Assembly (NCBI RefSeq): GCF_000236705.1
Contig: NC_016599.1
Span: 2,232,001 to 2,296,000 of the forward strand
Source: Owenweeksia hongkongensis DSM 17368
GTDB lineage: Bacteria; Bacteroidota; Bacteroidia; Flavobacteriales; Schleiferiaceae
Length of the DNA stretch: 64,000 bases
Reading direction: 5' to 3'
In this document: positions 34,848 to 40,470 of the stretch, in pieces
How the letters are laid out: each line of letters begins with the position of its first letter
Position numbering within the stretch: the first letter of the stretch is position 1
Notes under the pieces: generated by a model
What the model saw: the letters and a program-made list of their open reading frames with translations, nothing else
Database searches by the model: none
What the model was told of the DNA's origin: nothing
Made by a program: the position numbers and the translations under genes

Positions 34848-35100
34848 TGTAGTTTATAACGTTATTTTTGAGTCAATTGCCTCGTTCCGTTTGATGGCTC
34901 TACTTGGCAAATCTATTCATCAGGCCAAATTACCAATCTATCCTTTGGTATTATCCATTCAACGAATTGATATTTTCAAGCGCTTATTGCGTTCTATTTT
35001 TAACCCCAAGTTCAAGTCAAGAAACATGGAAAAACTTGCTTCAAAGCAAGTAAAATATTGTGGTAACTCGGCTATAAGCCGCAAATATCACACAAGTTAG
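34848..35100. other. Intergenic region without a convincing gene
   Basis: About 250 bp between the flavoprotein gene and the first tandem RNA element. It holds only a 69-codon open frame (34891-35100) without homology signs, and a short palindrome CGGCTATAAGCCG near its end. It probably carries the promoter of RNA element A, but no good -7 box is visible: TATCACAC occurs where copy B has TACATTTG. Confidence 0.4.
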
Positions 35101-35203
35101 TTTAGTTGAGAGAGGTTTAGTTGAGCACTAAATCTGGTCCAAGATTTGGGAGGAGTCACACATCAAGGACCACAAAGCCCTGGAGTAATCCGGGGCTTTA
35201 TCA
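35101..35203 (+). ncRNA. Candidate structured small RNA, tandem copy A
   Basis: Three hairpins in about 100 nt. H1: GGTTTAGT (35114-35121) with ACTAAATC (35127-35134). H2: TGGTCC (35135-35140) with GGACCA (35167-35172), enclosing GAT/ATC and the loop TTGGGAGGAGTCACAC. H3: AGCCCTGGA with TCCGGGGCT around GTAA, a terminator-like stem with a weak T-tail. Copy B, 158 bp downstream, has the same layout and loop with different stem bases. No coding potential is seen. It may belong to a known Bacteroidota RNA family that I cannot check. Confidence 0.7.
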
Positions 35204-35244
35204 TTTATACCCTATTGGCTCGATGGTCTCCCCATAATTTTCTC

Positions 35245-35252
35245 TACATTTG
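35245..35252 (+). promoter_or_regulatory. -7 promoter box for RNA copy B
   Basis: TACATTTG is an exact match to the Bacteroidota -7 consensus TAnnTTTG. It ends 6 bp before the conserved 5' end of copy B (35259), the distance expected for a transcription start there. No clear -33 TTTG at the usual distance. Confidence 0.65.
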
Positions 35253-35258
35253 ACATAG

Positions 35259-35366
35259 TTTAGTTGAGAGAGGTTTAGTTTAACACTAAATCTTAGGCCC
35301 ATTGATTTGGGAGGAGTCACATATCAAAGGCCGCATAGCCCCGAAGAAATTCGGGGTTTTCTTTTT
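35259..35366 (+). ncRNA. Candidate structured small RNA, tandem copy B
   Basis: Same three-hairpin layout as copy A. H1: GGTTTAGT with ACTAAATC around TTAAC. H2: GGCC (35296-35299) with GGCC (35329-35332), then TTGAT (35302-35306) with ATCAA (35323-35327), enclosing TTGGGAGGAGTCACAT. H3: CCCCGAA with TTCGGGG around GAAA, then TTTTCTTTTTT, a good intrinsic terminator. The H2 and H3 stems differ from copy A on both sides while pairing is kept, and the apical loop is almost unchanged. A precise -7 box precedes it. Confidence 0.75.
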
Positions 35367-35378
35367 TACAATACACTG

Positions 35379-35386
35379 TACATTTG
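35379..35386 (+). promoter_or_regulatory. -7 promoter box for hemJ, possibly leaderless
   Basis: TACATTTG ends 4 bp before the hemJ ATG at 35391. If used, transcription would start at or within a base or two of the start codon, giving a leaderless mRNA. The match is exact, but no -33 element is evident because the terminator of RNA copy B lies there. Confidence 0.5.
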
Positions 35387-35390
35387 CCAC

Positions 35391-35930
35391 ATGAGCTACC
35401 TCTTTTTAAAATCTCTTCACATCATTGGCTTTGTAAGCTGGTTTGCAGGAATATTCTACATCGTACGCCTATTTGTATATCACCGCGAGGCCTGGGATAG
35501 AAATGACGAAACGGGCACCATCCTGCGTAAGCAGTATGAAATAATGGAAGGGCGCCTGCTAAATATCATTCAAACACCCGCCATGGTAATGACTTTGACC
35601 GGGGGCCTTGGCATGCTTATCATCAACCCTTCCTGGCTCAATCAACCCTGGATGCACGTAAAGCTCACCTTAGTAATTGGCCTCATTGCCTATCACTTTA
35701 GCAACTATCGTCAAATGAAAAAACTGCGCACCGAGCCTACCTCATTCAGTAGTTTTGGGTTTAGGCTTTACAACGAGTTGCCCACTCTCGTTCTTATCGC
35801 AATAGTGATGCTGGCCGTGTGGAAAAACCTTCAAGGACTGTGGTTAGGTTTCGGACTTTTACTCATGCTTGGTGTAGTATTTTTTATCGTAGCCAAATTG
35901 TATAAAAAGAGCCGCGAGAAGAAGGTTTAA
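35391..35930 (+). CDS. hemJ: Protoporphyrinogen IX oxidase HemJ
   Basis: 179 residues from the ATG at 35391; an upstream in-frame start at 35307 would put the terminator of RNA copy B inside the gene and is rejected. MSYLFLKSLHIIGFVSWFAGIFYIVRLFVYH is the HemJ (UPF0093) N-terminus with the conserved His10. Further membrane segments with ALVIGLIAYH-like HVKLTLVIGLIAYHFSNYR follow. HemJ oxidises protoporphyrinogen IX to protoporphyrin IX in haem synthesis. It ends in a basic tail. Confidence 0.93.
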   Translation: MSYLFLKSLHIIGFVSWFAGIFYIVRLFVYHREAWDRNDETGTILRKQYEIMEGRLLNIIQTPAMVMTLTGGLGMLIINPSWLNQPWMHVKLTLVIGLIAYHFSNYRQMKKLRTEPTSFSSFGFRLYNELPTLVLIAIVMLAVWKNLQGLWLGFGLLLMLGVVFFIVAKLYKKSREKKV

Positions 35931-36040
35931 GCACATAACAGTGGATTCTACCTGATAGTATTTTCTCTTTTCTACATCATCATTTTACTATGTAAATGAG
36001 TGCTGGAAAACAATACTTTTATACCAAATAAAATTATTGA

Positions 36041-36718
36041 ATGAAGCTCCTGATTGTAGAAGATGAACCTAAAGTAGCGGCCTTTTTAAACCAGGGTTTA
36101 TCCGAACAACGTTTTGAAACCGATGTGGTTTATGATGGTCAAATGGGCTTGAAGATGGCTCAACGAAATTCCTATGACATCATTCTGCTGGACATAATCA
36201 TTCCTTACATCAATGGTATCGAACTTTGCAAAAGCATCAAGGAGACTCACCCAGATGTGCCCATCATAATGCTTACTGCCCTTGGCACTACTGATGATAA
36301 ACTCACAGGGTTTGATGCCGGAGCGGATGACTATTTGGTGAAACCTTTTGAGTTTAAAGAATTGCTTGCCCGCATTAGAGCATTACTAAAACGCAGCACC
36401 GGTCAAATGAGCGTGGGCAACAAAATAAAGGTGGCAGATCTTGAACTGGATTTGGACAAGAAACGGGCTTTACGAAACGAAAAAGTGATTGAGCTTACCG
36501 CTAAAGAATTTTCGCTTTTAGAATATCTCATGCGCCACAAAGGGCGTGTGATTTCAAGGTCAGAGATTGCAGAGCATGTATGGGAAGTAACCTTTGACAC
36601 GGGCACTAACGTGGTAGATGTATATGTAAATCTTCTACGTAAAAAGGTGGATAAAGATTTTGACACCAAACTCATCCATACCAAAATTGGCTCCGGGTAT
36701 ATTCTTAATGCCGAATAG
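36041..36718 (+). CDS. OmpR-family response regulator
   Basis: 225 residues. Receiver domain 1-120 with acidic pair EDE near 7-9, phospho-acceptor Asp51 in DIILLDIIIP, Thr in MLTALGT and Lys in YLVKPFE. C-terminal winged helix about 128-223 (LTAKEFSLLEYLMRHKGRV, then NVVDVYVNLLRKKVD). It is followed after 2 bp by its sensor kinase. The target is not visible; the downstream coiled-coil gene is one candidate. Confidence 0.94.
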   Translation: MKLLIVEDEPKVAAFLNQGLSEQRFETDVVYDGQMGLKMAQRNSYDIILLDIIIPYINGIELCKSIKETHPDVPIIMLTALGTTDDKLTGFDAGADDYLVKPFEFKELLARIRALLKRSTGQMSVGNKIKVADLELDLDKKRALRNEKVIELTAKEFSLLEYLMRHKGRVISRSEIAEHVWEVTFDTGTNVVDVYVNLLRKKVDKDFDTKLIHTKIGSGYILNAE

Positions 36719-36720
36719 CG

Positions 36721-38088
36721 ATGCAAATCCGGAAGAAACTTACCTACCGATTTATTGCCATTGTGGCCTTCATTCTGTTCTTCTCCTCATTGGCTATTTA
36801 TATTTCATCAGCCGATTATCGTAGAGATGATTTTTATAACCGCCTGCTTAACAAAGCCCGAAACACTGCCAAGTTACTTATAGAGGTGGAGGAAGTTGAC
36901 GCCAAGCTTTTGCAACGGATGGAGCAGGACAATCCTTCAAGTCTGCCAGAGGAAAAAATTGTGATTTTCAACTACAAAAACCAACGGATATTTAATACTG
37001 GTGAAAAAGGAGTTTTAAAAATATCGCAAGAGCTAATTGACCAAATACGACTGGAAGAAGAGGTGCGCTATGAGGAAAATGGCTACGAAGTGGTAGGCTT
37101 TATGTTTGCCGACACCTATGATCGCTTTGTGGTAATAGCTGCCGGAAAGGACATTTATGGATTGAGCAAACTTCGAAACCTTCGAAACATTTTACTTTTT
37201 GTTTTTGCGATAAGCATCATCATTGTTTCCATTTCGGGATGGTTATTTGCCGGCCAGGCGCTCCATCCTATTTCTAAACTTGTAGAGCGTGTAAATAATA
37301 TTAGTATTACCAGCCTCAATCTGCGGCTGGATGAAGGTAAAAATCAGGATGAAATATCACAACTGGCTCATACTTTTAATCAAATGCTAGAACGACTCGA
37401 AAAGGCGTTTAAGATGCAAAAGAACTTTATCGCCAATGCATCTCACGAACTTCGCACTCCACTCACTGCAATTACCGGGCAGCTGGAGGTTGTACTAATG
37501 AAAGACCGCAACGAGGAGGAATACAGAAATACGATGGCATCCGTATTGGATGATATGAAGAGCCTCAATCATACTTCGAACCGCCTTCTTCTTTTGGCGC
37601 AAGCCAGCTCTGAAACTTCACAGGTAGATATAAAACCAGTGCGCGTAGATGACTTACTTTGGCAAGTGCAGCAAGAGCTCACTAAACGCAACACCGACTA
37701 CTTCATAGAGATTGGTTTTTCTGAAACGATGGAAGATGAAGCGCAGCTTACCGTTATCGGAAATGAGCAGCTATTGAAAACCGCAATTTCCAATTTGGCT
37801 GAAAACGGATGCAAATATTCAGATGATCATAAGATGGAAATCTTTGTACTTCCAAAATCAAAGCACCTCCATATACTTTTTAAAGATCATGGAATTGGAA
37901 TAGCCAAAGAAGAACTCAAGCATATCTTCGAACCCTTTCACAGAGGTACAAATGCACTGGGTTATAAAGGCCATGGTATTGGATTATCCTTGGTAGATCG
38001 TATCGTACACCTGCACAACGGCAAAATTGACGTCACCTCCGCCCTCGGACAAGGCACCACATTTACCCTCATTATGCCCTACTCATAA
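36721..38088 (+). CDS. Sensor histidine kinase
   Basis: 455 residues: membrane helix about 9-30, an extracytoplasmic sensor loop about 31-158, a second helix about 160-180, HAMP about 180-235, HisKA with phospho-acceptor His242 in ANASHELRTPLTA, and an HATPase domain (N-box NLAENGCKYS, DHGIGIAKEELKHIFEPFHRG, GHGIGLSLV). Partner of the preceding response regulator. The signal is unknown. Confidence 0.94.
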   Translation: MQIRKKLTYRFIAIVAFILFFSSLAIYISSADYRRDDFYNRLLNKARNTAKLLIEVEEVDAKLLQRMEQDNPSSLPEEKIVIFNYKNQRIFNTGEKGVLKISQELIDQIRLEEEVRYEENGYEVVGFMFADTYDRFVVIAAGKDIYGLSKLRNLRNILLFVFAISIIIVSISGWLFAGQALHPISKLVERVNNISITSLNLRLDEGKNQDEISQLAHTFNQMLERLEKAFKMQKNFIANASHELRTPLTAITGQLEVVLMKDRNEEEYRNTMASVLDDMKSLNHTSNRLLLLAQASSETSQVDIKPVRVDDLLWQVQQELTKRNTDYFIEIGFSETMEDEAQLTVIGNEQLLKTAISNLAENGCKYSDDHKMEIFVLPKSKHLHILFKDHGIGIAKEELKHIFEPFHRGTNALGYKGHGIGLSLVDRIVHLHNGKIDVTSALGQGTTFTLIMPYS

Positions 38089-39178: not shown

Positions 39179-39604
39179 ATGAAAGACAATGGCTACGTAA
39201 AGCGTACACAAAAAGATTACAGCTTAAACTTCAAGCTGCAAGTTGTCCAAGAAATAGAACGGGGCGAGTTAAGTCAGCATGGAGCAGTCCGAAAATATGG
39301 CATTCAGGCTCGCAGTACTGTGCTGAGTTGGTTAAGAAAGTATGGTAACTTTGATTGGGAAAATCAAACTCCAATACAAATGCCCAAAACTCCAGAACAA
39401 AAACTGATGGAACTAGAGCAAAAAGTTCGGCTATTAGAAAAGCAGAAAAAGCAGCTGGAACATCAAATAGAACGAGCCGACAAAAAGGCGATCATCTTTG
39501 ATATGATGATAGATATAGCCGAGAAAGAGTACAATATTCCAATCAGAAAAAACTCCTTACCCGAACAGTCAACCAATACAAAGAACACTACCAAGAAAGC
39601 CTAA
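39179..39604 (+). CDS. IS3-family transposase OrfA, copy 2
   Basis: 141 residues, identical to OrfA of copy 1: helix-turn-helix then a leucine-zipper-like coiled coil. Near its end lies A-AAA-AAC in frame (39547-39553), a slippery heptamer. A -1 shift there leads into an open frame continuous with orfB, so OrfA alone and an OrfAB fusion are both expected. Confidence 0.93.
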   Translation: MKDNGYVKRTQKDYSLNFKLQVVQEIERGELSQHGAVRKYGIQARSTVLSWLRKYGNFDWENQTPIQMPKTPEQKLMELEQKVRLLEKQKKQLEHQIERADKKAIIFDMMIDIAEKEYNIPIRKNSLPEQSTNTKNTTKKA

Positions 39605-39618
39605 CGGCTACCTGTAGA

Positions 39619-40470
39619 TTGTTCGGGTATAGCCGTCAAGTTTATTATCGCGCCATTAAAGCCGAAGAAGCCAAAAAGCAACGTGCGCAAAAAGTAGTAT
39701 CACTCGTGCAGGAAAAGCGCATGTCCATGCCTCGGCTAGGCACACGTAAACTTTACCACTTGCTACAGCCAGAGCTGCAAGCACTGGGCGTGGGTCGCGA
39801 TAAATTGTTCCACATTCTAAAAGCAAATCACATGTTAATACAACCCAAGAAATCATACCATATTACCACCAACTCACACCATAGGTTCCGCAAACACAAA
39901 AACGTGATTGCAGACTTACCCATTACCCGGCCAGAGCAGCTTTGGGTGGCCGATATAACTTATGTGGGTACCCGAGAAAACCCCATGTACCTGGCTCTAG
40001 TTACCGATGCCTACTCAAAAAAGATAGTAGGCTACAATGTATCAAACAGTTTGAGTGTGGATGGTGCGCTATCTGCCTTAAAGCAAGCTATCAAAAATCG
40101 AAAATACCCTAGCCAACCTCTGATCCATCACTCAGACAGAGACCTACAATATTGTAGCACCGATTACCAAAAACAACTGGCTAAAGCCAAAATAACCTGT
40201 AGCATGACAGAGTCTTATGACCCATATGCCAACGCCATAGCGGAACGTATAAACGGTATTTTAAAGCAAGAATTTATTGAAGTAGTAAAGGCCGATAAAC
40301 TAGACATCATGAAGCCTTTGGTGGAAGACAGTGTAAGCATTTATAATAAACAAAGGCCACACCTCTCCTGCCAAATGAACACTCCAGAACAAATGCATAA
40401 ACAAGATCAGGTCAAAATAAAATCCTATAAAAAACAAAACCTTGGTGAAGCTAGCTTCACCAAGGTTTAA
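39619..40470 (+). CDS. IS3-family transposase OrfB, copy 2, with Gly-to-Asp change in the active-site motif
   Basis: 283 residues counted from an in-frame TTG; in the frameshift product the domain continues from OrfA. It is the same as copy 1 except that codon 175 (40141-40143) is GAC rather than GGC, changing HSDRG to HSDRD, two residues after the second catalytic Asp. This Gly is strongly conserved in IS3/retroviral-type integrases, so this copy may be impaired. Confidence 0.93.
   Translation: MFGYSRQVYYRAIKAEEAKKQRAQKVVSLVQEKRMSMPRLGTRKLYHLLQPELQALGVGRDKLFHILKANHMLIQPKKSYHITTNSHHRFRKHKNVIADLPITRPEQLWVADITYVGTRENPMYLALVTDAYSKKIVGYNVSNSLSVDGALSALKQAIKNRKYPSQPLIHHSDRDLQYCSTDYQKQLAKAKITCSMTESYDPYANAIAERINGILKQEFIEVVKADKLDIMKPLVEDSVSIYNKQRPHLSCQMNTPEQMHKQDQVKIKSYKKQNLGEASFTKV

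Follow-up and report, generated by a model that had tools for sequence, protein, structure and literature searches.

The analyzed window comprises 64,000 nucleotides of the Owenweeksia hongkongensis genome (G000), which is a single contig of 4,000,057 bases. It contains two copies, A and B, of a structured element, flanked by a minus-strand gene of the geranylgeranyl-reductase family and by plus-strand hemJ. The element consists of a 5' tail, a first hairpin of 9 bp (H1), a second hairpin with an invariant apex (H2), and a terminator-type third hairpin (H3; Table 1). Copies A and B are 84.1% identical outside gaps, with 95% identity in the 38-nt 5' block and 80% in the 65-nt 3' block. Both lie where a preliminary description of this DNA had placed them, and their start-to-start distance is 158 nt in the 5' part and 161 nt in the 3' part. 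The common 5' segment, the three hairpins, and the near-invariant loop described there are borne out by the 38-nt block, by the folds of both copies, and by GGGAGGAGTCACA, which is exact in the H2 apex of A and B. The described difference in the middle stem (GGTCC/GGACC versus GGCC/GGCC) is likewise correct, as are the changes on both sides of the terminator stems between A and B.

Table 1 Features of the A/B locus (window coordinates)
Feature	Coordinates	Strand	Remarks
Copy A, small RNA gene	35099..35205	+	fold z -4.66; G001 ortholog 103/107 identical; recovered by covariance models
Copy B, small RNA gene	35257..35367	+	fold z -4.32; G001 ortholog 81.7% outside gaps, stem pairs kept
5' tail of A, AGUUUAGUUGAGA, proposed seed	35099..35111	+	the same in the four copies; its complement occurs before start codons
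Identical 13-nt 5' tail of B, proposed seed	35257..35269	+	identical in all four copies
H1 of A, 9 bp	35113..35135	+	fold, helix comparison
H1 of B, 9 bp	35271..35293	+	5 substitutions in G001 ortholog, all 9 pairs kept
H2 of A: GGUCC/GGACC outer stem, GAU/AUC inner stem, invariant apical part	35136..35171	+	
H2 of B: GGCC/GGCC outer stem, UUGAU/AUCAA inner stem	35296..35332	+	
Invariant apical motif GGGAGGAGUCACA in A	35148..35160	+	
Invariant apical motif GGGAGGAGUCACA in B	35309..35321	+	
H3 of A, terminator hairpin, 11 bp	35174..35199	+	
H3 of B, terminator hairpin, 9 bp, then UUCUUUUUU	35337..35358	+	
TACATTTG, sigma-A -7 type box for B; TACATTAG in G001	35245..35252	+	
P0 hairpin, upstream of A	35059..35092	+	7-bp outer stem kept; inner CGGCU/AGCCG here, CAGCA/UGCUG in G001
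Small hairpin upstream of P0	35034..35051	.	minus-strand terminator-like (stem then TTTTT), toward reductase gene
TACATTTG box, possible own leaderless start of hemJ	35379..35386	+	identical in G001
hemJ (protoporphyrinogen oxidase HemJ)	35391..35930	+	TIGR00701, 145.9 bits, cutoff 138.05

Each copy folds better than all 200 dinucleotide shuffles (z-scores in Table 1). For A, the best fold agrees with the centroid, and for B it nearly does. Three other genomes of the same genus are designated G001, G002, and G003. G001 carries both copies at the same place before hemJ. Between G000 and G001, copy A is 96.3% identical and copy B 81.7% outside gaps, as compared to 84.9% for hemJ, 88.5% for 600 nt of the reductase gene, and 70.5% outside gaps (55.4% with gaps) for the spacer between A and B. 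In the four-sequence alignment, standard pairs occupy 98.3% of 120 pair cells, versus 21.7-44.2% if the partners are slid by 1-3 columns. Five of 30 pairs are changed on both sides, a value reached by one of 500 shuffles, while slid partners yield at most one such pair. The 14 substitutions between the B orthologs keep all 22 hand-named stem pairs (random placement, P 0.0004), five of which are changed on both sides (P 0.012); this set covers H1, the outer stem of H2, and H3, and leaves out pairs at the joint of the outer and inner H2 stems that are present in only one ortholog. Applied per helix and per comparison, the random-placement test gives P 0.027 to 1.0 over nine comparisons. Selection on RNA structure, previously proposed from the paired two-sided changes between A and B, is now apparent between two species as well, with the stem pairs kept in the G001 copies. 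As covariation in the four related sequences, few as they are, is taken together with the folding scores, the assignment of A and B as RNAs is firm; with only two species compared, the conservation may reflect shared ancestry. A coding reading of the apex (TTG GGA GGA GTC, in frame with hemJ in copy B of both species) was rejected by eye, since the substitutions track the stems and change the peptide.

The suggestion that the elements might belong to a known Bacteroidota class such as Flavo-1 found no support in Rfam. In a cmscan of the window against Rfam 15, the only match at the gathering threshold was a tRNA elsewhere, and the five matches to positions 34850-35420 at E up to 5 all lay far below their thresholds (best: rimP, E 0.97, 20 of 47 bits, minus strand). 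Flavo-1 is likewise a flavobacterial structured RNA, but gave no cmscan match to A or B. Two covariance models were searched with Infernal's stricter filters, one of full length (R1) and one without the terminator (R3). R1 matched 81 of 88 genomes of the family at E <= 0.1. Among the 29 R1 loci listed, two are the true pair; in the other 27, neither strand carries a stretch that matches GGGAGGAGTCACA with two or fewer mismatches, and where the matched stretches at these loci were readable they were mostly terminator hairpins or tRNAs beside terminators. We therefore relied on R3, which at E <= 0.01 matched two of the 88 family genomes (19 genera) and three of 395 Flavobacteriales genomes. The third match (G128, E 0.003) was rejected, as the loop is absent and about one such E-value is expected by chance over so many genomes. 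The search of the Flavobacteriales proposed in the preliminary description thus recovered the real element only in G000 and G001 among 395 genomes.

No further copy was found in the 86 other genomes of the family or in the sample of the order, and G000 itself has only the two neighboring copies. In G002 and G003, even laxer filters gave no convincing match (one at E 3.6 in G003), and the loop is absent from their hemJ loci; among 30 hemJ loci searched for the loop with two mismatches allowed, only the two known ones have it. The loop pattern occurred in 13 stretches of the genome contigs, of which only the one on a G001 contig (L010) carries the element, whereas the printed surroundings of the other 12 had nothing further in common with it. 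Viral contigs contained no loop pattern and eight tail patterns, none with a loop within two mismatches, and plasmid and phage collections gave no match. A 24-nt stretch in G001 (contig C109, L009 1470-1525, minus strand) matches the shared tail and the start of H1 at 92%. It immediately follows the stop codon of one gene, of efflux type, and precedes another, small and regulator-like, both assigned by inspection; a different hairpin, and no H2, comes after the match (R3 E 0.23). This stretch may be a diverged third member or a chance match, since one match at its E-value (0.007) is about the chance expectation over 99 genomes. As far as seen, the family is confined to two species. A literature search found no description of this RNA in Owenweeksia nor of its loop sequence, and within Rfam 15 and the literature searched we regard A and B as an undescribed sRNA family of a known kind.

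The occurrence in two of four genomes of the genus and the prevalence of terminators among the full-length-model matches would also fit structured repeats without a function in trans, for example paired terminators or a decaying mobile element. We consider such an origin improbable, given that copy A is more conserved than both neighboring genes, that tail and apex are invariant, and that G000 has just two adjacent copies of a sequence with no counterpart in the plasmid and phage collections.

The two copies differ in their putative transcription signals. An exact TACATTTG box precedes B, as the preliminary description had noted, at -12 to -5 if B starts at 35257, and G001 has TACATTAG at the same place; this is the position of the sigma-A box in Flavobacterium psychrophilum (PMC9723704). 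For A, neither a box search nor inspection by eye revealed such a box at that distance. The terminator-type stems reported at the ends of both copies were recovered as terminator-like hairpins in G000 and are seen in the G001 folds too, with a U-run after A that is poor in G000 (TTTATCATTTAT) and good in G001. A further structured stretch lies directly upstream of A (about 35023-35098), and no such hairpin was seen before B. Its main hairpin, P0, has a z-score of -3.87 in G000 and -0.96 in G001 if folded alone, and two of the five pairs of its inner stem are changed on both sides in G001 (random-placement P 0.25). In longer folds, P0 and the smaller hairpin belong to a three-way junction whose end lies immediately upstream of the tail (z -6.07 in G000 and -3.03 in G001, values that include A itself). 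Judged from these folds, copy A may be a longer transcript of about 200 nt. Since only B is preceded by a sigma-A type box at that distance, A and B may respond to different signals.

Their position on the same strand, directly before hemJ in both species and with B ending 23 nt before the hemJ ATG, raises the alternative that A and B are tandem attenuators acting in cis in a hemJ leader. We argue against it because hemJ has its own TACATTTG box between the terminator of B and its ATG in both species, spaced for a leaderless start. Furthermore, no competing antiterminator was seen by eye and no alternative fold stood out, and hemJ is present without the element in G002, G003, and G021. Regulation of hemJ by attenuation thus appears unlikely.

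The 5' tail, AGUUUAGUUGAGA, is identical in four of four copies, and in copy B of G001 it has stayed fixed although the neighboring H1, which holds a near-copy of the tail, has changed. The tail of A is unpaired in the 107-nt fold. In the two B copies, the final nucleotides of the tail are paired with the terminator U-run in the best fold. In a 201-nt fold, part of the A tail pairs with upstream sequence in G000 and the tail is free in G001, whereas the centroid of a G000 transcript begun at 35052 leaves it free. The accessibility of the tail in A depends on where A starts, because the upstream part partly pairs with the tail in G000.

A search of G000 and G001 for the tail complement with one mismatch allowed, excluding the sRNA genes themselves, yielded eight non-self sites in G000. 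Four of these lie in sense direction 5-27 nt before the ATG of a full-sized gene, encoding a secreted protein of 221 codons (5 nt), a peptidoglycan-binding M15 peptidase of 245 codons (8 nt), an FG-GAP-repeat protein of 479 codons (9 nt), and an asparagine synthase of at least 491 codons (27 nt). A mechanical rule adds a fifth site (L119, before a 61-codon frame), which was left out of the count. G001 has five non-self sites, and the single one before a start is the ortholog of the secreted-protein site. As a control we used wobble sites with at least three substitutions, taken from the 103 of 210 wobble matches examined, of which 6 of 98 lie before a start. Fisher P values against this control are 0.0024 for the four of eight sites in G000 and 0.0031 for both genomes pooled (5/13), values that flatter the seed, because the test was devised after the sites had been seen (post hoc, n = 8). 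Wobble sites with two substitutions, assigned to neither group, lie before a start in one of five cases. Shuffled patterns in the window do so in 171 of 8483 cases (2.0%), and none of 29 sites for the tail complement in the window with three mismatches allowed does. Wobble sites are hardly more frequent than matches to the reversed pattern (113 versus 100 in G000 and 97 versus 79 in G001).

The best candidate target site (G000:C1:1722605-1722617, minus strand) is the one 5 nt before the ATG of the 221-codon secreted protein. The stretch that runs from the site to the ATG (18 nt) does not differ between G000 and G001, as compared to 79.4% identity of the coding sequence and 69.9% of the 98 nt upstream (the 18 nt included). 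At the G001 site, the duplex with the tail lengthens to 16 uninterrupted pairs (-21.0 versus -19.1 kcal/mol in G000). However, when 60 shuffled tails were run over 243 start regions, among which loci retrieved for matching the tail are overrepresented, at least 10 gave -19.3 or lower, so the pairing energies prove nothing alone. The identical leader could also be constrained as a short promoter-leader. We infer an outer-membrane location from the signal peptide and the look of the protein; Pfam gave nothing at 0.1, and the PDB a single weak match, to Tapirin (E 0.014). In the two genomes of the genus that lack the sRNA, the gene has no match at 1e-10 (G002) or a distant one (32%) whose leader lacks the site (G003). 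The other three G000 candidate genes have no G001 match at 1e-10 with a joined query, which may lose some. Two further sites were set aside. An AI-2E-type transporter gene (L166, L174) has a 14-pair site 29 nt before the ATG in both species, a weak case given its three and two wobble changes, and the L210/L241 site is uninformative, as it falls within a near-identical stretch where an upstream frame ends.

The G-rich apical loop of H2 was earlier suggested to bind leader regions. This idea, taken as long antisense pairing, found no support in the complement search: with one mismatch allowed, the complement of the 13-nt apex has one non-self site in G000, which reads as coding sequence, and none in G001, versus none and two for the reversed pattern. 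Because these sites are so few and no more numerous than those of the reversed pattern, a role as a second long seed is unlikely; the best duplexes of the loop over the 243 start regions (-19.4 and -19.2 kcal/mol) are values given without a shuffle control. By these comparisons, the 5' tail is the better seed candidate of the two. The loop more likely serves as a protein or ribosome contact or in stability than in long mRNA pairing, and it may also pair with mRNAs over shorter stretches or by wobble.

The apex consists of UG/CA and GA/UC pairs that are interrupted by 1x1 mismatches, with GGAG at its tip. Its 13 nucleotides are identical in the four copies, and its seven pairs never vary, in contrast to the outer H2 stem. 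Together with the complement search, in which near-perfect matches were no commoner than for the reversed pattern, this constancy could indicate that A and B act primarily by titration, with the apex sequestering an RNA-binding protein or the ribosome and the tail being secondary. Titration would need no tail, yet the tail has stayed as constant as the apex, and the apex may instead engage mRNAs in shorter pairing. We regard titration as a possible but rather doubtful explanation.

We favor, at a probability of about 0.5, the interpretation that A and B are sibling trans-acting sRNAs with a 5' seed. Starting from the computed conservation of paired structure, tail, and apex and the computed complementarity to the target site, we infer that both are transcribed as small regulatory RNAs, each ending in an intrinsic terminator, and repress their targets. 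The tail would pair with the translation-initiation region of target mRNAs and block the entry of the ribosome. The mRNA of the small secreted, probably outer-membrane, protein would be the best-supported target, and the H2 apex would form a separate motif that more likely contributes protein binding or stability than long mRNA pairing. It is tempting to extend this proposal to a recognition of the apex by an RNA-binding protein of the lineage, combined with a signal-sensing domain in the upstream part of a longer A (about 35023-35098) that gates the seed, leaving B as the ungated sibling, but we consider this combination unlikely.

Sibling sRNAs such as OmrA/OmrB, Qrr, and others in Gammaproteobacteria are tandem or multicopy sRNAs with a conserved seed, and OmrA/B use their conserved 5' end against mRNAs of outer-membrane proteins. 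Unlike these, A and B match no Rfam family. The nearest known system in kind, by analogy, would be FopS/GibS of Bacteroides. In Bacteroides thetaiotaomicron, FopS/GibS are paralogous sRNAs with a 5' seed in common, by which they repress mRNAs of outer-membrane transporters, and RbpB counters them; the FopS family has 14 RbpB-associated members of about 65-70 nt in Bacteroides (PMC11697453). Provided that the seed reading holds, A and B would share with FopS/GibS the arrangement of paralogous Bacteroidota sRNAs with a common 5' seed directed at the start region. Compared by description only, they differ in being two tandem copies of about 105-110 nt, with three hairpins and an invariant G-rich apex, in two species. 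Within the Flavobacteriales, Rfp18 of Flavobacterium psychrophilum is a structured sRNA conserved at the genus level, and its deletion affects predicted target mRNAs (PMC9723704). Again compared by description, Rfp18 resembles A and B as a structured Flavobacteriales sRNA of narrow conservation, but is predicted to pair via its third stem-loop and acts on metalloprotease mRNAs (PMC9723704). It is the only Flavobacteriales sRNA with a deletion effect that we met in the literature searched. If the favored interpretation is true, A and B would constitute a compact sibling-sRNA system with a named seed, a target site kept in a second species, and a separate invariant loop, and seed and loop would be separable for testing in the cultured type strain. 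They would also add, beside Bacteroides with FopS, a second lineage of Bacteroidota with duplicated sRNAs at the start of a cell-envelope gene. Otherwise, they would be an uncatalogued RNA of ordinary kind.

Downstream of the elements, a response regulator and a sensor kinase of heavy-metal type come after hemJ (35391-38088 including hemJ; best NCBIfam models TIGR01387 and TIGR01386, both below cutoff). Further on, two adjacent open reading frames at 39179-40470 resemble, by eye, an IS3-type transposase pair, and a piece near-identical to this pair occurs at another G000 locus (L132).
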